NCBI RefSeq assembly: GCF_030268045.1
Contig: NZ_BSDC01000001.1
Coordinates: 930,001-994,000, forward strand
Origin: Geothrix edaphica
Lineage (GTDB): Bacteria; Acidobacteriota; Holophagae; Holophagales; Holophagaceae
Length of the DNA: 64,000 nt
Reading direction: 5' to 3'
Part shown: positions 10,052 to 21,335 of the stretch, piece by piece
How the letters are laid out: every line of letters starts with the position of its first letter
Position numbering within the stretch: position 1 is the first letter of the stretch
Notes under the pieces: model-generated
Database searches by the model: none
What the model was told of the DNA's origin: nothing
What the model saw: only the letters and a program-made list of their open reading frames with translations
Translations under genes and position numbers: made by a program

Positions 10052-12232
10052 GTGCGGGGCAGGGGGCGTGGCATGAGGCGACTCGCACAGGGTTTGTGCG
10101 TACTGGCGGTCCTGGCATCGGGAGCGGCCCGGTCGCAGGGAACCGTGCCCCCCTGGGCGCAGGAGCGCGCCCAGAGGTGGTCCACGTACCGCACGGATGC
10201 CCGCGGCCAGCGCATCTGGCAGGCCGTGCCCTTCGCCCGGATGACCCAGGCGGAGCAGTGGGACCAGTTCATGCAGCACCTGAAGCAGGGCGGAGAATCC
10301 CGCCGGGTAGCCCTGGCCTTCCTGGGCCAGCAGACTGTGTCGGTCTGGGCCGAGGAGGCCCTCAAGACCAGGGATCCGGAAGTGGCCCTCGCCCTCTACC
10401 GGCTGGGCTACCGCCAGCCCGGAGCAGACCCCTTCGCCTATCTGGGCTCGCCGGACCGCGTGGAGCGCCCCTGGACCCACGGCCTGGGCCTGCATCTCGA
10501 CAGGACGGGCTGGCGCTTCCAGTGGATCCCGAGCCCGGCCCTGTTCACGCAGTCAGGCACGGCGGGACTGCCGAAGGGCCTGGGCCAGGCCGCCCAGCCC
10601 GGCGTCCTCATCCACCTGAAGCAGCTGCGGCCCGGCCTCGAGAAGCTGGTGGCCCTCAGCGGAGGGGGTAGTCCCGACCCGCGCGGTGTCCTGCAGGCCC
10701 TGGCCCAGGGCAGCCGCGCGGGCTTTGCCGTACGGCATCTGGAGCCCTGGCTGAAGCAGGCCTCCCCGGCCCTGGAGCCCCTGGCGAACCGCGAGGCCTG
10801 GGTGTTGCACTACGGAACCACGCGGGATGGAGCCGGCGGAATCCAGGGGACCCTGGTGTTCATCCCGGGGGACCTTCCAGCGCGCACCCAGCTGATGATG
10901 GCCCTGCTCAGGCTGAATCCGCTGAGTGCCGGGGCCCGCACCCGCGTGGAGAAGTGGACAGGCCCTGGCGCATCCACGGAGGTTCAGCAGCTGCGCGGAT
11001 CGGGCGGTGTCTTCCACTTGATCCAGATGGCCGAGGGCACCTGGATCAGCGACCGCGAGGCCCCGCTCCGCGCCCTGCTGTTCCCGGGGCCCGTGCCCAC
11101 CCTGGGGGAGCGCCAGGAATGGACGCGCGTCGCCCTGTCGGCCATGGCCGCGGACACGGAGTTGTCCTTCTGGCTGGCTCCGCGGATCGGCGCGGACGCG
11201 ACCTTCGAGAACCAGGCCCTCCGTCGCCGTCTGGCCAATTCCCAGCAGGGCACCTGGCCCAATCCCTTCGTGGCCAAGGCCGCGCCCCGCACGGGGGCCA
11301 TGGCGGTGGCCCTCGGCGCAGGGCCGACCGAAAAGCTGGTGGAGGCGATCCTCCGCGTGGACGATGCCCGCGACCTGCCGACTCCTCAATATCCGGTGTT
11401 CACGAATGGGGGGCAGGCCCTGACTCCCGAGCAGCGGAAAGGCATCAAAGACGCGGATGTTCGTGCAGAGGAGGCCCTACGTCAACGGACGGCCCTGCGC
11501 CAGGACGCCGCGGCCCTGCAGGCCTGCCTGGATCTCAGGGGTGCGGCGCTGCTCTGGAATGGCTGGGTCAGCGCGCCCCCGCTCGGGCCCAAGGAGAAGG
11601 CCTCGTTGGTGGAGCTGGCCAAGCTGCGGAGAGAGGATCCCTGGCGGGCCATGCAGCTCCAGCAGGAGGGAAAGGTGTCGGCCTTCGGCGGCTTTGGCGA
11701 GCCCGGCATGGCCCCGAGCCTGGCCCTGGCCATCCCCGTGCAGCCCGCCCGGCGGGTCCAGGCTGAGAACCTGCTGAAGAAGGTCCTGCCCCGCCTCTTC
11801 CAAGGCCAGAACCAGAAGCAGGCCCTGGGGGCGGCGGAGCTGCACCGCATCCTCACGGCCCAGGCCTTCCGGCCCGCCTGGACCCTGGTGGCCGACACCC
11901 TGGTGCTGGGCACGGACGAGGCCGCTGTGAAGGCCGTGGCTGCGGGGCTCCTGGGCCAAGCGCCCACCCTGGCGGACACCGACTCCCGCGCCTGGGCGCG
12001 CATGGAAGTGGACGGGGCCCGGGCGTCTGCCGAGCTGGAGAACCTTCTGCTGGCCTTCCTCCGCAGCCGCACGGGCAGCGGATGGTGGATCGGCGAGGCT
12101 GGCAGCCAGGACGAGTCGGCGGCGGAGCTGGCGATGAGCCTGGGGCCCTTCCTGGGCGCCCTCAAGGCCCTGGGGCCGGTGCGCCTTGAGTGGAACTGGA
12201 CGGCGGGCGGCCTGGAGGGGCGGCCCCGATGA
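10052..12232 (+). CDS. Secreted protein, first gene of the alpha-2-macroglobulin cluster (YfaA/DUF2138-like by position)
   Basis: The protein has 726 residues with a signal peptide ([21 protein letters not shown]). GTG at 10052 has GGAGG five bases upstream; ATG at 10073, seven codons later and also with a purine-rich upstream stretch, is an equally good start. The body has no motif I can name. Its place directly before a DUF1175-type gene and an alpha-2-macroglobulin gene matches E. coli yfaA (DUF2138), so that identity is inferred from context. The stop overlaps the next start (ATGA). It is probably periplasmic and works with the products downstream. Confidence 0.7.
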
Positions 12233-13173
12233 AGCCACGCCTCCTCCTGGGCGCTGGCGTCGTGCTGGCCGCCGCAACCATGCTGGTGCCCCTCCGGCAC
12301 CGGGCGGTCCTGGAGGCGGACCCGGCCAATCCGGTGGTCCGCATCCGCGTGGACAGCCGCTCCCTGGCGGGCCTCCGGCTGCCGGGCTGGGGTGTGGCGG
12401 TCGAAGGGGTCCCGGCCTGGCGCGGGCCGGGGGGCTTCTTCCTGATGGCCAACGGGCCGGCCTCCGCGCAGGTCAGGGCCTGGCCTGGTTTCCGACAGTC
12501 CCTGTCCATTCCTGGTGGAGGGAACTGGACTCCCGCGGGCCTTCCGGATGAAGGCGACCGGGAGGCCTTCCGGAGCTGGTTCGTGGCCCTTCTCGAGCAG
12601 CAGGTGGAGGCGCCCAGTCCCGCCTGGGAGCCCGCCCAGCGGGACTGCGCGGGTCTGCTCCGCTTCGCCTTCCGCGAGGCTCTCGTCCCCCACACGGTGG
12701 AATGGCGGAACCGCATCGCCTTCAGCGACAGCGCACCGGGCCAGGATCCCTCTCCCGCGCTCGGTGCCGCCTGGCGGCAGGGGTTCCCCACGCCGGATGG
12801 GCCGCGCCCCTTCGCCAAGGGCGCCTTCCTCCGGCGCCTGGCCTGCGTGCCCCTTGGCCGCGACACGGCCTTGGCCCGCCCCGGGGACCTGGTGTTCTTC
12901 GCCCGCGGCGGGGCCCGCACCCAGCCCGACCACGCCATGGCCTTCGTGCGGCCGGACGTGGACGGCGCCCCCATGCTGCTCTACCACACGGGGCCCGAAG
13001 GCAGCGGCACCACCCAGAAGCCCGGGGAGGTCCGCCGCGTCCGCCTGGATGACCTGCTGCACCACCCCGACCCCGAGTTCCGACCCGTGCCCGAGAACCC
13101 CTCGTTCCTGGGCCTCTACCGCTGGCAATTGCTGGCGGGCGGGGCCTCCGAACCATTCCTCCCCAGGTCCTGA
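12229..13173 (+). CDS. DUF1175/YfaT-like protein with NlpC/P60-like cysteine peptidase motifs
   Basis: The product has 314 residues with an N-terminal signal or anchor ([16 protein letters not shown]). Residues 138-146 read RDCAGLLRF, the catalytic-Cys motif of NlpC/P60-like domains (Cys140). [14 protein letters not shown] and QPDHAMAFV follow with His235, and a further His253 lies in LLYHTG. This is the Cys-His-polar order of peptidoglycan hydrolases or amidases. In E. coli the DUF1175 gene yfaT stands next to yfaS, as here. The start overlaps the preceding stop (ATGA) and the stop is one base before the next gene's start. Likely periplasmic; activity is inferred from the motifs. Confidence 0.75.
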
Positions 13174-13174
13174 C

Positions 13175-16100
13175 ATGCGCTGGTTCCGATCGATCCTCAC
13201 CCTGCTGCTGCCGGCGCTCCTGCTGCTGCCCACCACCGGCACGGCCCAGAAGCGGGCCGCCGAGGCCCCCTGGCGCGAAGGCGGCTGGACCGGCGCCTTC
13301 GCCACCCTGCGGCCCACGCTCCCCGGGCAGGCAGGTCAGCTGGAAGCCGCGGGGCCCATTCCGGCGGAAGCCCGCATCCGGATCTACCGGGTGGAGGATC
13401 CCGAGGCCTTCCTGAAGAAGGTCCTGACGGACCGGAACCAGGCTGCGGCGGAAGGTGGACGCGGGGTCGCGGATCCCCTCGACCTGCTGCGCGAAGCGGT
13501 CCTGTGGGGCGGCCGCCGCGCCTTCGTCACCGTGCATCGCACCGCCACCCAGGCCCTGCGGGACGCCGCCAAGCAGACGGACCGGCTGCACTCCGCCCGC
13601 ACCAGCCCAGAGCGTGTCCGCGAGGGCTCGGCCCTGCCCATCGAAGGGCGGCCCGGCATCACCTTCGTGACCGAGATCGTCCCGAAGATCAGCGAGGACA
13701 TCGCCGGCAAGAAGGGGCATGAGGACGATGAATCCGGCGATGACGGGTTCACCAGCCGCGTGCCGCTGCCGGCCCAGCCCGCGGGCCTCTACCTGGTGGA
13801 GATCCTGAGGGGCAGCGATGCGGCCTATGTGCCCTGGATGGTCACGGACCTGGCGCTGCTGTCGGAGCAGGACGGCACCCGGATCCGCGTGCAGGCGGTG
13901 GATGGGCGTGATGGCGCGCCGAAGGCCGGCGCCTCCGGTCAGATCATCGAGGGGACCAGGGCCCAGCCGCTGGCCTTCGATGGCGGCGGCAAGGCCGAGG
14001 CCATGGTCACGCCGGGCGTGCGCCGGGTGGTCCTGGCCCGCAGCGGCGGGAGCTTCGCGCTCCTTGCCAGCGAGGGCCAGAGTGCCGCGGCCGTGCGCCA
14101 GCGCCTCTATGCCTTCACGGAACGGCCCCTCTACCGTCCGGGCCAGGAGGTCTTCGCCAAGGCCATCCTGCGGCGCGTGGAGGACGGTGAGAACCGCGTG
14201 GTGAACGGCGCCGCAAGCCTGCCCTTCACGGTGCTCGACCCCGAGGACACGAAGGTGGCGGAAGGTCAGGCGGAGCTGCTGAATGCCGAGACCGGCACCT
14301 ACGCCGCCCAGTTCACCCTGCCGGGCGCAGGCCGCCTGGGCCTCTACCGCCTCGTGTTCCAGGGCCCTCAGGGCCCCGGCCAGGCCGAGTTCAAGGTGGA
14401 GCAGTTCGTGAAGCCCGCCTTCGAAGTGAAGGTGACCTCCGAAAAGACCAAGGTGGGTCTGGGTGATGCCCTGGCCTTCCACGCGAACGCCCGCTACTTC
14501 TACGGGGCGGCCGTGCGCGGCGCCAAGGCGGACTGGTTCCTCTACAAGGTGGTACCTCCGAAGAGTCCCTGGATCTGGGACGACGAAGACGCCGGCCCCG
14601 CGCCCGAACTGATGGAAAGCGGGCAGCTGGAGCTGGATGACGAAGGCCAGGCCGACCTGCCCACGTTCAAGGCCGAAAGCGATGGTCTCTGGCGCATGGT
14701 CGTGAAGGTGGCCGACGCCTCGGGCCAGCGCAACAGCGGCCAGGCCCAGGTGCGGGCGGCCGCCGGCGACCTGGTGCTGATGATCGCCGCGGACCGCCAG
14801 GTGGCCCTGCCCGGCAAGCCCTTCCAGGTGACGGCCCGGGCCCTCGATCTGGACGGCAAAGTGGTGCCGGGCGTGGCCATCACCCTGCGGGCCGCGCGCC
14901 TCGTGGCCCAGAAGGACCACGCCTACTGGTGGTCGCGCCCCAGTGCCCTGAAGCCCGGCGAGACCATCGCCTCCGCTCAGGGCCCCCAGGCCATGCTGAG
15001 CATCCCCGAAGGTGGTGCCTTCCTCCTGGTGGCGGAGGCGAAGGATTCCAAGGGCCGCCCCGTGACCGCCCAGCGCCAGATCACCGTGGCGGCGGAAGGC
15101 ACGCCGCTGCCCGCGGTGCCGGACCTCCGCGCCGCCGCGGACAAGCCCGAATACCAGCCCGGCGACACGGCCCGCATCCTCGTGCAGCTGCCGCGGCCCA
15201 GGCTGACCCTGCACTGGGCCCTGGAGCACGAAGGCCTGGGCCAGCAGCAGAGCCGCGCCGTGCAAGGCACCACGGCGCTGATCGAGATCCCCGTCACCGC
15301 CGCCATGCAGCCCAATGTCTGGGCCGTCTTCGAGATCGTGAGCGAGGGCCGCCGCCAGCTGGCGGAAGTGCCGATTCGGGTGCCGAAACGGGACCGGCGC
15401 CTCCAGGTGGCCGTCACCACGGACAAGGAGCGCTATCAGCCGGGCCAGCCCATGAAGGTCTCCGTGGAGGTGAAGGATGCCTCCGGAAAACCCTCCGCCG
15501 CGGATCTCAGCGTGGGCGTGGTGGACGAGGCCATCTACGCGCTGAGCCAGGAGCTGCATCCCGACCCCGTGCGCTTCTTCCACCCCACGCGCCGCCACGG
15601 CGTGCTGCGATCCGGGTCCACGGACTGGAGCTTCCACGACCTGCTGCGCCGGCAGCGGCCCGTGTGGAGCCTCAAACAGACCAGGCGCGGCGACTTCAAG
15701 GCCGATGACGGCGACAAGGTGCGCCAGAACTTCAAGGACACGGCCCACTGGGTACCCTTCGTGGCCACGGGCCGCGACGGGAAGGCCAGCGTGGACCTGG
15801 TGCTGCCGGACAACCTCACGGCCTGGCGGGCCACGGCCACGGCCGTCACCGCTGACACCAAGGTGGGCGTGGGCCGGGCCTCCAAGCCTGCCTCCAAGCC
15901 CCTGCAGGTGGCCCTCACCCTGCCGCGCACGCTGAGCGTGGGCGAGGAGGCCCGGGCCATCGCCCTGGTGCGGAACCTCTCCGGTCAGCCCCTCCAGGGG
16001 AAGATCCGGCTGGAAGTCCAGAACGGCCGCTTCTCGGGCACCCCCGAAGGATCATTCAGCCTCCAGGACCAGGGCGAGTACCGCTTTGCCCTCCCGCTGT

Positions 16101-17935
16101 TCTCCGACAAGACCGGTCCGCTCACGGTGACCGCCCGCGTGGAAGGCGGCGGGCTGAAGGATGCTGAGCGGCAGAAGGTGGCCGTCCAGGACCAGCTCGT
16201 TCCGGCGTCGATGTCCGGTTCCATGCTGCTGGAGGGCGGCTCCCAGTCCCTCACCATCCCGCTCCCGCCCGCCGCCAAGGGGGACGCGACCCTGGTGCTC
16301 ACGCCCGTGGGCAACCTGGAGCATCTGGCCGCGCCCTCGCTGCCTTACCTCATCGGCTATCCCTATGGCTGCGTAGAGCAGACGCTCTCGAGCTTCGTGC
16401 CCAACCTGCTGGTGGCCGACCTCGTGAAGCAGGGCGCCATGCCGGATCTCGACTGGAAGCAGCTCACGAACCTGGACCGCAACATCCGGGATGGCGTCTT
16501 CAAGGTCTACGGCTACCAGATGGCCAACGGCGGCTGGGGCTGGTACGCGCCCGGGGACTTCGCCCTGGACGCCAACCCCCACACCACCGGCTACGCCATC
16601 CAGAGCTTCGCCACCATGAAGCGCCTGGGCTATGCCGTGGACGAGGGGGTCTACCGCCGCGGCCGCCTGGCCGCCATGAACCTCTTCCAGCAGGTCGCGC
16701 GGCAGGCGGATCAGGCTGGCGCCACGCCCCAGGCCCGATCGGCCGGCCATGGGCAGTCGAGCGAGCCCGCCGCGGATGCCGCCTTCCTGCTGGTGTCCCT
16801 GGCCCAGGCTGGCGAACCCCTGGCGGGCCTGCTGGACAGCGCCGCGGACAAGGTGCTGCGGGGCCAGTGGCCTGGCGATCATGTGCTGGCCATGGTGGCG
16901 CTGGCCGCGGCCCAGGCGAAGCACCCAAGGACCGCCGCGCTCATCGAACGCCTGGAGCAGCGGGCCGTGGTGAAGGGGGGCTTGGCCCGCTGGGAGGGCC
17001 GGCGGGAGTTCTGGTGGAGCTACGCCTCGGGCGATGTGGTGCCCACGGTCATGGCCCTGAAGGCCCTGTGCCTGGCGCGTCCCCAGTCGCCGCTGATCCG
17101 CCAGGGCGAGACCTTCCTGGCCTCGGAATACCGTGGCTACGGCTGGTACTCCACCTGGAGCACGGGCCAGATCGTGGACCTGCTGCCCTACCTGATGAAG
17201 GTCCGCAAGCTCGATTGGGGGCCGCTCGCCATCCAGGCCGCTGTGCAGGGTGGCCCCACCTGGGACTTCAAGGAACGGCCTCAGCCCCGCCGCTGGAACG
17301 TCCGCGAAGCCCGCCCGGGCAGCTACGCCATGGCAGAGCCAAAGGCCGTCACCCTCACGGCCAGCGGCAAGGGCCTGCTGGTGTGGACCTACGCCTACCA
17401 GGTGCCGGGCAGTGCCGCGGGCGTCCCCAAGGGCGACGCCTCCTCGGCCCTCCGCCTGTCCGTGACCCGGAACCTCTGGCGTCTGAAGACGCCCCAGGAA
17501 ACCGGCAATGCCCATCAGGGATGGGTCCGCCAGAGCTGGACGGGGACCCTGAACGCAGGCGAGGAGGCCTGGATGGAGGTGTCCTTCCGCACGGACCGGG
17601 ATGCGGACTACGTGATGCTTGAGGTGCCCATCCCCGGCGGCCTCAGCCCCACCGTGAAGCTGGAAGGCTTCGTCCTGGAAGGGAAGCCCTTCACGGACGA
17701 GGGGGCTTCCGAGACCTGGACGAAGCCCCGCATCGAGGTCCACGCGGACAAGGTGACCTTCCTGTTCCCCCGGACCTGGAGCTGGGACACACACACCGTG
17801 CGGATCCTCCTGCGGGCGGGCATGGCAGGCAGCTACCGGCTGCGGCCGGCCAAGCTGAGCCTCATGTCGAACGAGGGGCAGTGGGCCACCTGCGACGGGG
17901 CGGACCTGAAGGTACTGGACGGGGGTGCGCGATGA
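13175..17935 (+). CDS. Bacterial alpha-2-macroglobulin-like protein (YfaS-type) with intact thioester motif
   Basis: The protein has 1586 residues. A signal peptide (residues 1-24, ending TTGTAQ) means it is exported; no lipobox Cys is visible. Repeated MG-type beta-sandwich features follow, such as LYRPGQEVFAKAILR, AEFKVEQFVKPAFEVKVT and LPRTLSVGEEARAIALVRN. GVVDEAIYALS and the tract WVPFVATGRDGKASVDLVLPDN are typical of the bait region flank and MG7. The thioester motif PYGCVEQT lies at 1063-1070 with Cys1066, then a helical alpha-toroid TED domain. Alpha-2-macroglobulins trap proteases by covalent thioester chemistry. I recall that the YfaS/MagD branch in enteric bacteria and Pseudomonas lacks this motif, so its presence here is notable. 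Confidence 0.9.
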   Translation: MRWFRSILTLLLPALLLLPTTGTAQKRAAEAPWREGGWTGAFATLRPTLPGQAGQLEAAGPIPAEARIRIYRVEDPEAFLKKVLTDRNQAAAEGGRGVADPLDLLREAVLWGGRRAFVTVHRTATQALRDAAKQTDRLHSARTSPERVREGSALPIEGRPGITFVTEIVPKISEDIAGKKGHEDDESGDDGFTSRVPLPAQPAGLYLVEILRGSDAAYVPWMVTDLALLSEQDGTRIRVQAVDGRDGAPKAGASGQIIEGTRAQPLAFDGGGKAEAMVTPGVRRVVLARSGGSFALLASEGQSAAAVRQRLYAFTERPLYRPGQEVFAKAILRRVEDGENRVVNGAASLPFTVLDPEDTKVAEGQAELLNAETGTYAAQFTLPGAGRLGLYRLVFQGPQGPGQAEFKVEQFVKPAFEVKVTSEKTKVGLGDALAFHANARYFYGAAVRGAKADWFLYKVVPPKSPWIWDDEDAGPAPELMESGQLELDDEGQADLPTFKAESDGLWRMVVKVADASGQRNSGQAQVRAAAGDLVLMIAADRQVALPGKPFQVTARALDLDGKVVPGVAITLRAARLVAQKDHAYWWSRPSALKPGETIASAQGPQAMLSIPEGGAFLLVAEAKDSKGRPVTAQRQITVAAEGTPLPAVPDLRAAADKPEYQPGDTARILVQLPRPRLTLHWALEHEGLGQQQSRAVQGTTALIEIPVTAAMQPNVWAVFEIVSEGRRQLAEVPIRVPKRDRRLQVAVTTDKERYQPGQPMKVSVEVKDASGKPSAADLSVGVVDEAIYALSQELHPDPVRFFHPTRRHGVLRSGSTDWSFHDLLRRQRPVWSLKQTRRGDFKADDGDKVRQNFKDTAHWVPFVATGRDGKASVDLVLPDNLTAWRATATAVTADTKVGVGRASKPASKPLQVALTLPRTLSVGEEARAIALVRNLSGQPLQGKIRLEVQNGRFSGTPEGSFSLQDQGEYRFALPLFSDKTGPLTVTARVEGGGLKDAERQKVAVQDQLVPASMSGSMLLEGGSQSLTIPLPPAAKGDATLVLTPVGNLEHLAAPSLPYLIGYPYGCVEQTLSSFVPNLLVADLVKQGAMPDLDWKQLTNLDRNIRDGVFKVYGYQMANGGWGWYAPGDFALDANPHTTGYAIQSFATMKRLGYAVDEGVYRRGRLAAMNLFQQVARQADQAGATPQARSAGHGQSSEPAADAAFLLVSLAQAGEPLAGLLDSAADKVLRGQWPGDHVLAMVALAAAQAKHPRTAALIERLEQRAVVKGGLARWEGRREFWWSYASGDVVPTVMALKALCLARPQSPLIRQGETFLASEYRGYGWYSTWSTGQIVDLLPYLMKVRKLDWGPLAIQAAVQGGPTWDFKERPQPRRWNVREARPGSYAMAEPKAVTLTASGKGLLVWTYAYQVPGSAAGVPKGDASSALRLSVTRNLWRLKTPQETGNAHQGWVRQSWTGTLNAGEEAWMEVSFRTDRDADYVMLEVPIPGGLSPTVKLEGFVLEGKPFTDEGASETWTKPRIEVHADKVTFLFPRTWSWDTHTVRILLRAGMAGSYRLRPAKLSLMSNEGQWATCDGADLKVLDGGAR

Positions 17936-18792
17936 GGCGGCTGCTGATTTTCTCCCTCCTGCTGACAGCCACCTTCCTGGGCGCCCAGAAGCCGCGGGCG
18001 GCGAAACCCCAGCCCGCGGGAGCCTATGTGCCCGACCTCAAGCAGTGGCGCCTGGAGGTGGCGCCGGCCCTCGGCGGATGGTCCGGGGACCGCACCGTGA
18101 ACCTGCGCATCAAGCTCGTGGATCCCCGGGATCCCAACCCGCCCAAGGACCAGGCCCAGCCCCGATTTTTCGACGACGAGGAAGGGGGCGAGGACGAGCC
18201 CAGGACGGAGGACACCCGCACCGCCGAGCAGCTCCGTCAGGAGCGGCTGGCGCGGGAGGCCGAGGCCGCCCGCAACGCTTGGCGGTCGCGCAGCCTCCAG
18301 GTGTGGTTCAACGGCGCGACACTGCGCTGGCAGGCCAGTGTGGGCACCACCCTGCACACCGAACTCACCGCCCAGAACGGCGAGAACCGCCTGGAGATCC
18401 TGGAGCCGGATTCGGGCCTGAAGGTGGTCCGCAGCTGGTGGGTGTCCACGGCGCGGACCCGCCTCCGCGTGGTGTCCGTCCAGGTGGGCGAGGAGTACGC
18501 CAGCGGCAGCCTCCAGGTGCAGGAGCCGGACGGGGCCCTGGCGCAGGGAGGCCGCCGCACGCCCTCCGGTGGGATGCTGCGCTGGTCCGGCGAATACACC
18601 CACGAAACGCCGCCTCCGGGCACGTACACCCTGAAATGGATCAGCGGCTGGCGTGGTGGCCGGCCCGCCCGGGTCCGCCTCGAGGCCCTGCTGGACGGCG
18701 GCACCGACCAGGAGCGCCGCTGGATCTGGGAACGCCTCATCCTGCCCGGCGCTGGACCTGTCACCCTGGGGACCTTCGATGTGGAACCTTAG
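17932..18792 (+). CDS. DUF2135/YfaP-like secreted protein
   Basis: The product has 286 residues, starts on ATGA overlapping the A2M stop, and has a signal peptide (MRRLLIFSLLLTATFLGA). An acidic stretch (about residues 80-105, DDEEGGEDEPR) and a basic helical linker precede a beta-rich C-terminal half with LQVQEPDGALAQGG and HETPPPGTYTLKWISGW. That pattern is like DUF2135, found in E. coli yfaP beside yfaS. It overlaps the next gene by 14 bases. It probably acts in the periplasm as a partner of the A2M protein; family assignment is moderate. Confidence 0.65.
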   Translation: MRRLLIFSLLLTATFLGAQKPRAAKPQPAGAYVPDLKQWRLEVAPALGGWSGDRTVNLRIKLVDPRDPNPPKDQAQPRFFDDEEGGEDEPRTEDTRTAEQLRQERLAREAEAARNAWRSRSLQVWFNGATLRWQASVGTTLHTELTAQNGENRLEILEPDSGLKVVRSWWVSTARTRLRVVSVQVGEEYASGSLQVQEPDGALAQGGRRTPSGGMLRWSGEYTHETPPPGTYTLKWISGWRGGRPARVRLEALLDGGTDQERRWIWERLILPGAGPVTLGTFDVEP

Positions 18793-19609
18793 GCTGGTCG
18801 TCGCCCTCCTGGCCTTCCGGCTGCTGACCGCCCAACCGGCGCCGGAAACCGGGCCCAGTCCCGCGTTGCTGGCAGCCTCGCGGGCGCCGGTCCTCCGGCC
18901 GGGCGAGGGTTTCGCCATCACCCTGGGGGACGGCGAAGTGCGCGCCTTTGGGGAGGCCCGGAAGGAGGCTCCCATGGGCAGCCTCGCCAAGCTGGTCTGG
19001 ATGCGGCTGGAAGGGGCCGAGTGGTCCAGCTCGGGCGTCCAGTACCGGTGCAAAGGCACTGATGGGCCCTTCGTGTGCTGGAATCGCGAGGGCCACGGCC
19101 GGGTGGACTTGGGCCGCGCCCTCCAGGAGAGCTGCAACCTGGCCTTCCTGGTCTGGATCGCGGGGTCCCGGGAGCGCTGGCTGCAGGACTACGGCCCGGA
19201 TGCGGCCCGGGCGCGCCTGGAGGATGTCTTCCAGCCCTTCCTGGGCCGCCGCCTGCCACTGGGGGAAGGCCTGCCGCCCCTGACCGCGGCCTGGGTGGGC
19301 GACGGAGACCTGCTGCGGACCAGCCCCGAGGCCTTCCTTCGCTGGCTCATGGAACCGGACCAGGCGGAGGTGGTCACCTTCGGGAAGCGCTTCCTGGCGG
19401 GCTATTGGGTGGAATTCATGGATCTCTTCGGCAAGGAGGGCTGGTGGTTCAAGACCGGTACCGGCCCGGTGCCCGGCGAACCTACGGCCACCAGCGCCTG
19501 GGTGGCCGGTGGGCGCGGCTCCGCCCTCGTGGTGCTCCACCTGCCGCGGGGCCGGGGCAAGCAGGAGGGCATGGTGCGCATCCGGGAGATCCTGGGGCTG
19601 AAGCCTTGA
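18779..19609 (+). CDS. Penicillin-binding-protein-like serine transpeptidase/beta-lactamase fold (YfaQ/DUF2300-related?)
   Basis: The protein has 276 residues with a signal peptide (LRLVVALLAFRLLTAQ). All three active-site motifs of the penicillin-binding/class D beta-lactamase fold are present in the right order: SLAK (Ser68-Lys71), SCN (118-120) and KTG in WWFKTGTG (225-227). The spacings fit small PBPs. The likely role is DD-transpeptidase or carboxypeptidase action on peptidoglycan, or a related acyl-serine chemistry. The ATG at 18779 overlaps the DUF2135 gene by 14 bases. In E. coli the tandem DUF2300 gene yfaQ occupies this neighbourhood, so the two genes here may be the halves of one such protein. 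Confidence 0.75.
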   Translation: MWNLRLVVALLAFRLLTAQPAPETGPSPALLAASRAPVLRPGEGFAITLGDGEVRAFGEARKEAPMGSLAKLVWMRLEGAEWSSSGVQYRCKGTDGPFVCWNREGHGRVDLGRALQESCNLAFLVWIAGSRERWLQDYGPDAARARLEDVFQPFLGRRLPLGEGLPPLTAAWVGDGDLLRTSPEAFLRWLMEPDQAEVVTFGKRFLAGYWVEFMDLFGKEGWWFKTGTGPVPGEPTATSAWVAGGRGSALVVLHLPRGRGKQEGMVRIREILGLKP

Positions 19610-21087
19610 TCGTTCTGGCTGTGGCGGCCCCCGCGCCGCCGTTCACGCCTCCGGTGATCGACGGGGATCCTGCCGCCCAGCAGGCCGTGGAAACGGCCTT
19701 GCGGCAGTCGTTCGCCGCCACGACGGCCTTCGGGGCATGGCCCCCCGGGCCCTGGCGTGTGGTCATCCACGCTGACGCCACCGCCTTCGAGCGGACCACG
19801 GGCGGGGCCCCAAGTGCGCGCAGCGGCCAGTGGGTGGGGGCCACGCTGCACCTGCGGCCCTGGGAACAGCTGCAGCGGCGGGACCTGGGCGCGATCCTGC
19901 GCCACGAGCTGACGCACCGGCGCCTGGCGAAGGCGGGGCTGCGCCGGTGGACGGAGGAGGCCCGCTGCCAGTGGGCGGAAGGCCATTCGGGCCCGCCGAA
20001 GGTCTGGCCTGTCGCGCCTCCCGGCGGGCTGCAGGCGCGCCTCGACCGGGCCCTGGCGGGTGGCACCACTCGCGAGCAGCACTGGGCCTATGGGTGGCTG
20101 CGGGCCTGGCTGCGGGGTGAGCCCCTGCCGGCACCGCCCAGCGCCCGGGCGCCCCGGAGGGACGCGTGGGTGAAGGAGGCCGCCACCCTGGCGGAAACCG
20201 TCACGGTGGTGTGGCCGCCCGAGCGCCTCCGCCATCCGATGATCGTGAATGGACATCGACTGTCGCATCGAGCGGGCGGGACCTGGCGCTTCCAGGGGCA
20301 GGTCCGATTTGGTGGGGGCTCCCCCGTCCACACCCTGGCCGGTCGCGTGGTGGTGCGCGCCGAGGCCCGCGGCTGGCGGCTTGCCTGGACGGCCTCCCGG
20401 GCCGCCTGGGTTGCCGCGGCCACCGAGGGCGAACTCGGGGCCGAGGCCCCCTTCGAAGCGCGACGGGCCCTGGCGGCTGTGTTGCAGCGCTGGCTGGAGG
20501 GCCATCGCCATCAGCATCCCGGCGGTGTCCTCTGTCCTCTGACGCACTGTGCGGTGGTGCGGGGAAAGGCCTCGATCGATACGCTCCGTGCGGCCGCGAC
20601 GGCACCACGCTTGGATGTGGATCCCCGCTGGGCCTTCTTCACGGGCTCATCCGGCGGTCACCCTCTCAGTCCCCGCGAGGTCTGGGGTGGGGGGCCCGAG
20701 GGTCCCGGCGGGGGCACGGAGGTTCCAGGCGACCGCTGGCTGGCTTGGGAGCGCACCCTCAGCCCAGGACAGGCCAGTGCGCTGAAGCAGGATGTGCGGC
20801 CCAGCCTGAAGCCGGGCCAGAAGGGCCTGAAGCTGGGGGACTCCGGGCCCTATGCGGTCGAGGAACTGCGGCTGGCCGCGGGGCGGCGCTTCGGCTGGAC
20901 CACCTGGCCCAGCAACGCCTGCGAGGCGGAGGCGCTGCCCGACGGGTCGCTGCGGCTGCACGGCTGGGGCTGGGGCCACAATGTGGGCCTCTGCCTTGCC
21001 ACGGCCCGCTTCCGGGCAGAGCAGGGCGCCACCGCGGAGCAGATCCTGGCGGAAGCCTACCCTGCTTCGTGGAGAGGCGCCCCATGA
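19606..21087 (+). CDS. Secreted protein with HExxH motif and SpoIID-like C-terminus (YfaQ/DUF2300-like)
   Basis: The predicted start is TTG at 19606, which overlaps the preceding TGA (TTGA); no better start exists nearby. Of 493 residues, the N-terminal part holds RHELTH (HExxH, 100-104) followed by RRWTEEA (115-119), the pattern of gluzincin zinc peptidases in which a downstream Glu is the third ligand. The C-terminal ~70 residues contain LHGWGWGHNVGLCLATARF (from 451), close to the SpoIID/LytB motif of GHGVGLCQ-type peptidoglycan amidases. The signal peptide is weak (IVLAVAAPAPP). The role is probably on cell wall or protein substrates, with the cluster's other members. Confidence 0.7.
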   Translation: MIVLAVAAPAPPFTPPVIDGDPAAQQAVETALRQSFAATTAFGAWPPGPWRVVIHADATAFERTTGGAPSARSGQWVGATLHLRPWEQLQRRDLGAILRHELTHRRLAKAGLRRWTEEARCQWAEGHSGPPKVWPVAPPGGLQARLDRALAGGTTREQHWAYGWLRAWLRGEPLPAPPSARAPRRDAWVKEAATLAETVTVVWPPERLRHPMIVNGHRLSHRAGGTWRFQGQVRFGGGSPVHTLAGRVVVRAEARGWRLAWTASRAAWVAAATEGELGAEAPFEARRALAAVLQRWLEGHRHQHPGGVLCPLTHCAVVRGKASIDTLRAAATAPRLDVDPRWAFFTGSSGGHPLSPREVWGGGPEGPGGGTEVPGDRWLAWERTLSPGQASALKQDVRPSLKPGQKGLKLGDSGPYAVEELRLAAGRRFGWTTWPSNACEAEALPDGSLRLHGWGWGHNVGLCLATARFRAEQGATAEQILAEAYPASWRGAP

Positions 21088-21335
21088 CCTGGTGGCTGTA
21101 CCTGCTCCGTTGCGTGGACGGCACGCTCTACTGCGGCATTGCGCTCGATGTGGAGGCGCGGTTGCAGCAGCACCGCGAAGGCAAGGGCGCCAAGTACACC
21201 AGGGGCCGCGGGCCCCTGGTGCTGGTCTACCGCGAGGCCTGTGGCTCGAAGGCCGAGGCGCTGCGGCGGGAGCGGACCATCAAGCGCCTGAAGCGCCCGG
21301 CCAAGGAGGCCCTGATCGCTACAGGAAGACCGTGA
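21084..21335 (+). CDS. GIY-YIG nuclease domain protein (UPF0213-like)
   Basis: Eighty-three residues: TWWLYLLRCVDGTLYCGIALD is the GIY-YIG strand pair in its YLL...LYCGI form, followed by ARLQQHREGKGAKYTRGRGPLVLVY (catalytic Arg region) and EALRRERTIKRL, in which the metal-binding Glu is present. Small GIY-YIG proteins of this group are presumed DNA nucleases of unknown role. The start overlaps the cluster's last stop (ATGA), so it is read on the same message. Its end overlaps a convergent gene by 17 bases. Confidence 0.88.
   Translation: MTWWLYLLRCVDGTLYCGIALDVEARLQQHREGKGAKYTRGRGPLVLVYREACGSKAEALRRERTIKRLKRPAKEALIATGRP

Follow-up and report, generated by a model that had tools for sequence, protein, structure and literature searches.

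A thioester alpha-2-macroglobulin operon of the Mag/Yfa type in Geothrix edaphica, with predicted transpeptidase, gluzincin and SpoIID domains in the MagE/YfaQ position

A 64,000-nucleotide (nt) stretch of the genome of the soil bacterium Geothrix edaphica (contig NZ_BSDC01000001.1, positions 930,001 to 994,000), which we call the window, contains seven genes, named A to G here, that form a real and conserved operon. It is a variant of the Mag/Yfa type, already known, which is built around an alpha-2-macroglobulin (A2M), a complement-like protease trap. Judging by their sequence profiles, genes E and F together correspond to MagE/YfaQ ("DUF2300"), a new identification that names the likely enzymes of a defence operon still poorly understood and corrects an earlier guess of MagE as a cytoplasmic chaperone. 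We consider it rather probable that the operon is a thioester-bearing variant of Mag/Yfa envelope defence in which E and F carry the MagE/YfaQ function, and that its products make up a protease trap at the wall that brings along enzymes for editing the wall. Coordinates of all features are collected in Table 1.

By its motifs and its predicted fold, gene E is a transpeptidase domain of the PBP2/FtsI type. Its profile matches the solved structures of SpoVD, PBP2 and FtsI at an E-value of 1.5e-35, which is class-B-like. The AlphaFold2 (AF2) model has a predicted local distance difference test score (pLDDT) of 91 and a predicted template modelling score (pTM) of 0.86. It aligns with PbpA at a VIA Z of 19.1 over 223 residues and 3.6 A; for PbpA, PBP3 and PBP2 as a group, Z is 18-19 and the aligned length about 223 residues. 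BlaR and the class D beta-lactamases come almost as near, with Z about 18, so the fold alone cannot choose between these groups; it is the sequence profile that favours the transpeptidases. An earlier reading of the window, made from the sequence alone (the sequence-only reading), had picked out SxxK, SxN and KTG motifs in this protein, and all three were located on a predicted transpeptidase fold. The motif residues S/K/S/N/K/T-or-S/G are intact in 97 of 97 distinct sequences, three of them with KSG. This and the other motif counts given below refer to distinct sequences from profile-selected alignments; strongly decayed copies, such as YfaQ, fall outside them. Conservation on this scale, which extends across phyla, shows that the motifs did not arise by chance. 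Because fused homologues carry both domains, the domain profiles for E and F were built separately for each domain.

Gene F had been described as a protein with HExxH and a SpoIID-like end, and both halves of that description were borne out: the motif at H100, the third ligand E118 and the SpoIID motifs are in place, and the predicted fold matches both families. The AF2 model has a pLDDT of 79, with about 95 in the zincin part (residues 13-175). This part combines HExxH with a downstream Glu on a zincin fold, which makes it a gluzincin (clan MA). It aligns with LTA4 hydrolase (Z 8.5, 129 residues, 3.4 A), collagenase H was also matched, and by profile the matches to peptidase family M1 are weak only (E 0.2-1, to Spartan and M1 chains). 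Residues 194-490, the half modelled with moderate confidence, align with SpoIID 5i1t at Z 11.0 over 200 residues with a high root mean square deviation (9.5 A). Firmer support for the predicted SpoIID assignment than the model gives comes from the profile match to SpoIID 4rwr (2e-36) and from Pfam matches in relatives. The zincin residues H/E/H/E are present in 92 of 93 distinct sequences and the SpoIID catalytic Glu in 86 of 86. Structure prediction, which had been proposed as a check of the expected active-site geometry, returned the expected folds for both E and F, at the level of the fold. In all Geothrix loci F begins in an ATGA/TTGA overlap with E, and about 10 hydrophobic residues, too short for an ordinary signal peptide, precede APAPPFTPP.

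In E. coli, yfaQ, described as "tandem DUF2300", sits between yfaS and yfaP. The N-terminal half of YfaQ is matched by the transpeptidase profile at 2.9e-5 and its Citrobacter counterpart at 6e-7, where the best of 200 shuffles gave an E-value of 0.11; the middle of YfaQ is SpoIID by Pfam (7e-6, above the cut-off). The zincin profile gave no significant score against YfaQ, which has only an HEYLH at the matching C-terminal position. MagE may be equated with YfaQ on the strength of gene order and the closeness of MagC to YfaT, and our link to the P. aeruginosa mag operon rests on the MagC structure 7bk8 and on published papers. The sequence-only reading was right to liken the genes to E. coli yfaA-T-S-P-Q, but it missed the published mag literature and the equivalence of YfaQ with E and F. 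It had also placed three catalytic partners beside the A2M; the motifs and folds agree with this, but E and F appear to be the pieces of YfaQ/MagE rather than extra partners.

The same three domains occur in relatives in several packagings. Acidobacteriota encode either one protein in the order transpeptidase-SpoIID-zincin or a transpeptidase and a SpoIID-zincin protein. The Holophagaceae, including the window, have a permuted split (transpeptidase / zincin-SpoIID), and one locus, L047, has the permuted order in fused form. The phylum that includes locus L117 has either three separate genes or a transpeptidase-SpoIID fusion and a zincin. Counted as distinct sequences, there are 26 cases of transpeptidase / SpoIID-zincin on the opposite strand, 21 of transpeptidase / zincin-SpoIID, 23 full fusions (17 on the same strand and 6 on the opposite one), 4 sets of three genes, 4 of transpeptidase-SpoIID / zincin and 1 permuted fusion; at the remaining loci one or two domains were not found. 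One fused homologue, at L053, matches Pfam Transpeptidase at 7e-34. That the same three domains are packaged in so many ways is strong "Rosetta stone" evidence for their joint action. Elsewhere in the 3.16-Mb genome there are 3 Pfam transpeptidase matches and 1 SpoIID match, and this rarity, taken with the repeated neighbourhood, argues that the adjacency is not due to chance. A survey of gene order, also suggested beforehand, found the linkage kept across Acidobacteriota, one further phylum and partly Deinococcota, with order and strand varying.

Gene C, the sole A2M in this genome, had been recognized from the sequence as an A2M with CxEQ, and it is one. Pfam finds MG2 (7.5e-21), A2M_BRD (3.4e-17), A2M (4e-16), bMG10 (1.2e-12) and the thioester domain, TED (1.6e-6), and the motif lies within YGCVEQT. 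Type II A2Ms have been defined by an absent CxEQ and a six-gene operon (PMC5764988). With its CVEQ, gene C falls outside Type II so defined; it has the CxEQ of Type I but lacks a pbpC (PBP1c) neighbour, its neighbours being Mag/Yfa-type genes, with the DUF1175 gene directly adjoining. Of 134 full-length A2Ms beside DUF1175 (115 distinct), 131 keep CxEQ, and only those of E. coli, Citrobacter and the L176 genome are without it. Gene C scores 159 bits with YfaS and 75 bits with YfhM, which makes YfaS the closer of the two, and Citrobacter YfaS scores up to 258 bits against DUF1175-linked thioester A2Ms and 31 bits against the Type I YfhM. Together, the motif counts and bit scores indicate that operon class and thioester are separable: most sampled A2Ms of the DUF1175 class keep the thioester, and the split into Type I and Type II does not follow operon type. 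CxEQ retention in this class is only partly new, as an older paper hedges with "in many species". The thioester was likely lost in enterobacteria; as to the direction of loss, YfhM, Citrobacter YfaS and L176 sit on very long branches in a tree of 37 A2M sequences, which fails to place them. A conserved TED His (+70 after the Cys) was considered as a C3-like acyl-transfer residue; it lines up with another region of human A2M, and we make no claim for it.

Gene B had been credited with NlpC/P60 motifs, and we found DCAGL, HxM and YHTG in a protein that belongs by profile to the MagC family. An alignment of 21 relatives matches the solved MagC 7bk8 at an E-value of 1.3e-61, the three motifs are common to both, and the NlpC/P60 pattern DC-H-H falls on C140, H235 and H253, the same residues as in 7bk8. 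All three (C/H/H) are present in 112 of 125 distinct DUF1175 sequences, and the Cys and first His in all 125. The protein is 87% identical to its G. oryzisoli counterpart. The title of a 2021 FEBS Lett paper (cited in PMC10318531) presents MagC as NlpC/P60-like, as belonging to the Mag complex and as interacting with peptidoglycan.

The proposal that these genes form a joint peptidoglycan and protease module is supported by sequence and fold, through the predicted transpeptidase in E, the predicted gluzincin and SpoIID domains in F and the MagC family membership of B. Type I A2Ms have long been held to couple protease trapping and wall repair, owing to their PBP1c neighbour. That the Mag/Yfa class has a penicillin-binding enzyme of its own, a second pairing of trap and wall after PBP1c, is the strongest argument for a joint function. 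In P. aeruginosa, MagD traps protease and binds MagA, MagB and MagF; both its quantity and its forms are altered when MagB or MagE is missing (PMC5764988). In Nov 2025 the mag operon was reported to protect P. aeruginosa against peptidoglycan-cutting effectors of the type VI secretion system (T6SS) (PMC12663445). Because a protease trap is not expected to stop peptidoglycan cutting, this protection lacked an explanation, and a transpeptidase, SpoIID and gluzincin in the MagE/YfaQ position would supply a direct, testable one. The operon would thus protect against wall attack because wall-editing enzymes stand beside the trap.

In such a mechanism the A2M would be located at the wall, and MagC would keep the complex on peptidoglycan. 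When a protease of the attacker cut the bait region, the A2M would close and bind the protease through its thioester. The SpoIID domain would trim damaged or naked glycan and the transpeptidase would re-crosslink it, so that the complex would both neutralize proteases and mend or remodel the wall at the breach. The zincin would probably process the A2M or clear trapped protein, which is the least certain step. We offer only tentatively the more far-reaching picture of a self-contained wall-defence machine, a thioester macroglobulin with a lytic transglycosylase, a transpeptidase and a metalloprotease, in which bait cleavage would sense the breach, the intruder would be tagged or trapped covalently and the wall rebuilt, with MagE/YfaQ as the catalytic heart and not a chaperone.

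Several findings weigh against a wall-associated trap with its own enzymes. MagE was reported to be cytoplasmic and to form no stable complex with MagD in vitro (PMC5764988), and the DUF1175 family has been called inactive (PMC10318531). YfaQ of E. coli and Citrobacter lacks SxN (it has SCG) and KTG (it has KTW), which means that not every member can have the enzyme roles. Deinococcota loci, on plasmids, hold DUF1175, A2M and a free-standing zincin gene without a transpeptidase or SpoIID, and some freshwater Holophagaceae keep only DUF1175 and zincin. Gene A has no sequence tie to MagB. Finally, Geothrix F is without a clear signal peptide: it reads M/L-IVLAVAAPAPPF, a start of about 10 hydrophobic residues that lacks a charged leader. 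All six products had been thought to be exported, but for F this is doubtful; it has either an unusual leader or a misread start, or it stays inside. The Acidobacteriaceae counterpart of F has a signal peptide.

The wall enzymes (SpoIID, NlpC/P60-like and transpeptidase) could instead be installation tools, opening the wall and closing it again for the placing and anchoring of a very large A2M complex, with defence by trapping alone. Large envelope machines often bring their own lytic enzymes, and the three domains mostly stay with the A2M cluster. MagD needs partners for its stability and location (PMC5764988). However, the mag operon guards against wall-cutting effectors, not proteases (PMC12663445), and the Deinococcota A2M occurs without SpoIID or transpeptidase; we judge this explanation unlikely, if a serious competitor. 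Less probable still is that the gluzincin is the core partner, nicking or maturing the A2M or digesting trapped targets, and that the peptidoglycan domains are secondary. Of the three domains, Deinococcota keep this one alone, its HExxH and Glu are nearly invariant, and in P. aeruginosa MagD is processed to 100 kDa in vivo and takes altered forms after magE loss (PMC5764988). Yet that 100-kDa processing depended on MagB, the zincin score in YfaQ is not significant, and the occurrence of zincin and DUF1175 without an A2M beside a MurG-like glycosyltransferase points to the wall. That E and F are dead enzymes serving as a scaffold for the A2M complex, as may hold for E. coli YfaQ with its altered transpeptidase motifs and lost SpoIID motifs, is very improbable, since the motifs are nearly invariant in the window lineage and in all aligned non-enterobacterial sequences and selection for a scaffold alone would not keep them.

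Table 1. Genes, domains and motif residues of the operon, in window coordinates
Feature	Positions	Strand	Basis
Gene A, 719 amino acids (aa), exported, MagB/YfaA position, no known family	10073-12232	+	position; no Pfam/NCBIfam match
Gene B, 314 aa, DUF1175/MagC/YfaT, NlpC/P60-like	12229-13173	+	Pfam PF06672 6.9e-43
C140 of gene B	12646-12648	+	NlpC/P60-like Cys
H235 of gene B	12931-12933	+	NlpC/P60-like His
H253 of gene B	12985-12987	+	NlpC/P60-like third polar residue
Gene C, 1586 aa, alpha-2-macroglobulin: MG2, bait-region, thioester domain, bMG10	13175-17935	+	Pfam
CVEQ thioester motif of gene C, within YGCVEQT	16370-16381	+	sequence
Gene D, 286 aa, YfaP/MagF-like (DUF2135 type)	17932-18792	+	hhalign, hmmsearch
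Gene E, 276 aa, bare penicillin-binding transpeptidase domain	18779-19609	+	profile, AF2 fold
SxxK of gene E (S68)	18980-18991	+	sequence
SCN of gene E (S118)	19130-19138	+	sequence
KTG of gene E (K225)	19451-19459	+	sequence
Gene F, 493 aa, gluzincin-like then SpoIID-like domain, TTG start overlapping E stop	19606-21087	+	AF2, profiles
Gluzincin-like domain of F	19639-20130	+	AF2 fold, conserved motif
HELTH of F (H100ExxH)	19903-19917	+	sequence
Third ligand E118 of F	19957-19959	+	sequence
SpoIID/LytB-like domain of F	20218-21075	+	NCBIfam SpoIID_LytB 7e-4
Catalytic-position E276 of F	20431-20433	+	SpoIID motif
C..THC of F	20533-20550	+	SpoIID motif
Gene G, 83 aa, GIY-YIG domain protein	21084-21335	+	Pfam GIY-YIG 4.2e-18; overlaps F by 4 nt

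The seven genes of the operon lie on the + strand at 10073-21335, overlapping or nearly abutting one another, with A to F spanning 10073-21087. The junctions are overlaps of 4 nt (A/B), 4 nt (C/D), 14 nt (D/E), 4 nt (E/F) and 4 nt (F/G) and a single gap of 1 nt (B/C), which indicates one transcription unit. Scans for promoters and terminators found none, and ATG at 10073 is a likelier start than GTG at 10052. Six overlapping or near-adjacent genes had been listed before, in agreement with the measured junctions, but the seventh, gene G, was missed. Gene G is likely a passenger of the operon. A GIY-YIG gene after F is also kept in other Geothrix loci.

The label "DUF2138-like" that had been attached to gene A was not confirmed. 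Neither Pfam nor NCBIfam gave a match, and profile comparison by hhalign with YfaA and Citrobacter YfaA (shallow alignments), directly or via Myxococcota-like relatives, likewise returned nothing for DUF2138. Gene A does match L117-type upstream genes by profile (Prob 96, E 3e-9, single-template). Its relatives at the same position in Myxococcota-like genomes are lipoprotein-like, with an N-terminal hydrophobic stretch followed by Cys, which may fit an anchor role.

Gene D kept its DUF2135-like label. Pfam itself makes no family call, but hhalign places it with the YfaP set (Prob 94.6, E 7e-8, single-template), and hmmsearch finds the L127 protein at 1e-11, itself a weak DUF2135 match, and YfaP at 6.6e-6. 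In acidobacterial clusters outside the Holophagaceae, a multi-pass membrane protein without a Pfam family occupies the gene D slot (L053:12729-13565, L054:12095-12868, L067:11518-12318), where it may serve as the membrane anchor. At two loci a gene for a Ser/Thr protein kinase stands between the DUF2135 and transpeptidase genes (L117:12761-14407, Pkinase 3.6e-46; L127:12103-13665).

DUF1175 was found in 54 of the 396 sampled Acidobacteriota genomes, most Geothrix included; for the phylum of L117 the figure was 87 of 195 genomes, and the control genomes of E. coli and Thermotoga maritima have it too. Many in the L117 phylum are of a second DUF1175-A2M subtype with a shorter, interrupted DUF1175 match (L178, L180-L186); there the order is a D-like gene, B, a gap, an A2M with CLEQLV and a transpeptidase-SpoIID fusion, and the zincin was not found. 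At L048 and L049 (Holophagaceae, genus g9) E is present, and the zincin-SpoIID gene was not found within the fetched stretch. Metagenome-assembled genomes of freshwater Holophagaceae have a DUF1175 and zincin pair with no A2M, followed by a glycosyltransferase-28 (MurG-like) gene (L051:4190-7738, L104:9890-13441, L107:1820-4549); through this neighbour the pair is linked to the cell wall even where the macroglobulin is absent.

Of the known systems, E. coli yfhM-pbpC (Type I) also sets a thioester A2M next to a penicillin-binding enzyme, whereas the partner in the window is a bare class-B-like transpeptidase domain and not PBP1c, and the A2M is nearer to YfaS. The SpoIID lytic transglycosylase, the PBP2/FtsI domain and the M1-type gluzincin have the fold and catalytic motifs predicted for E and F; unlike these, the window has no sporulation or divisome context, its transpeptidase has no pedestal, and its zincin is short, at about 165 residues. 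E. coli yfaATSQP shares the order A-T-S followed by the Q and P genes, and YfaQ has the transpeptidase-like N-terminus, SpoIID-like middle and HEYLH end. It differs in that the K-12 annotation treats yfaS as a pseudogene, YfaS is without CxEQ, YfaQ has lost SxN and KTG, and the Q and P genes stand in the reverse of the window's order. With respect to P. aeruginosa magABCDEF, the window is without detectable MagB/DUF2138 homology and without a separate magA, its A2M has CxEQ, and MagE is split into two genes and permuted. Common to both are a DUF1175/MagC gene next to the A2M, a MagF-like DUF2135 protein, the set of domains in the MagE position and a compact operon of exported proteins.

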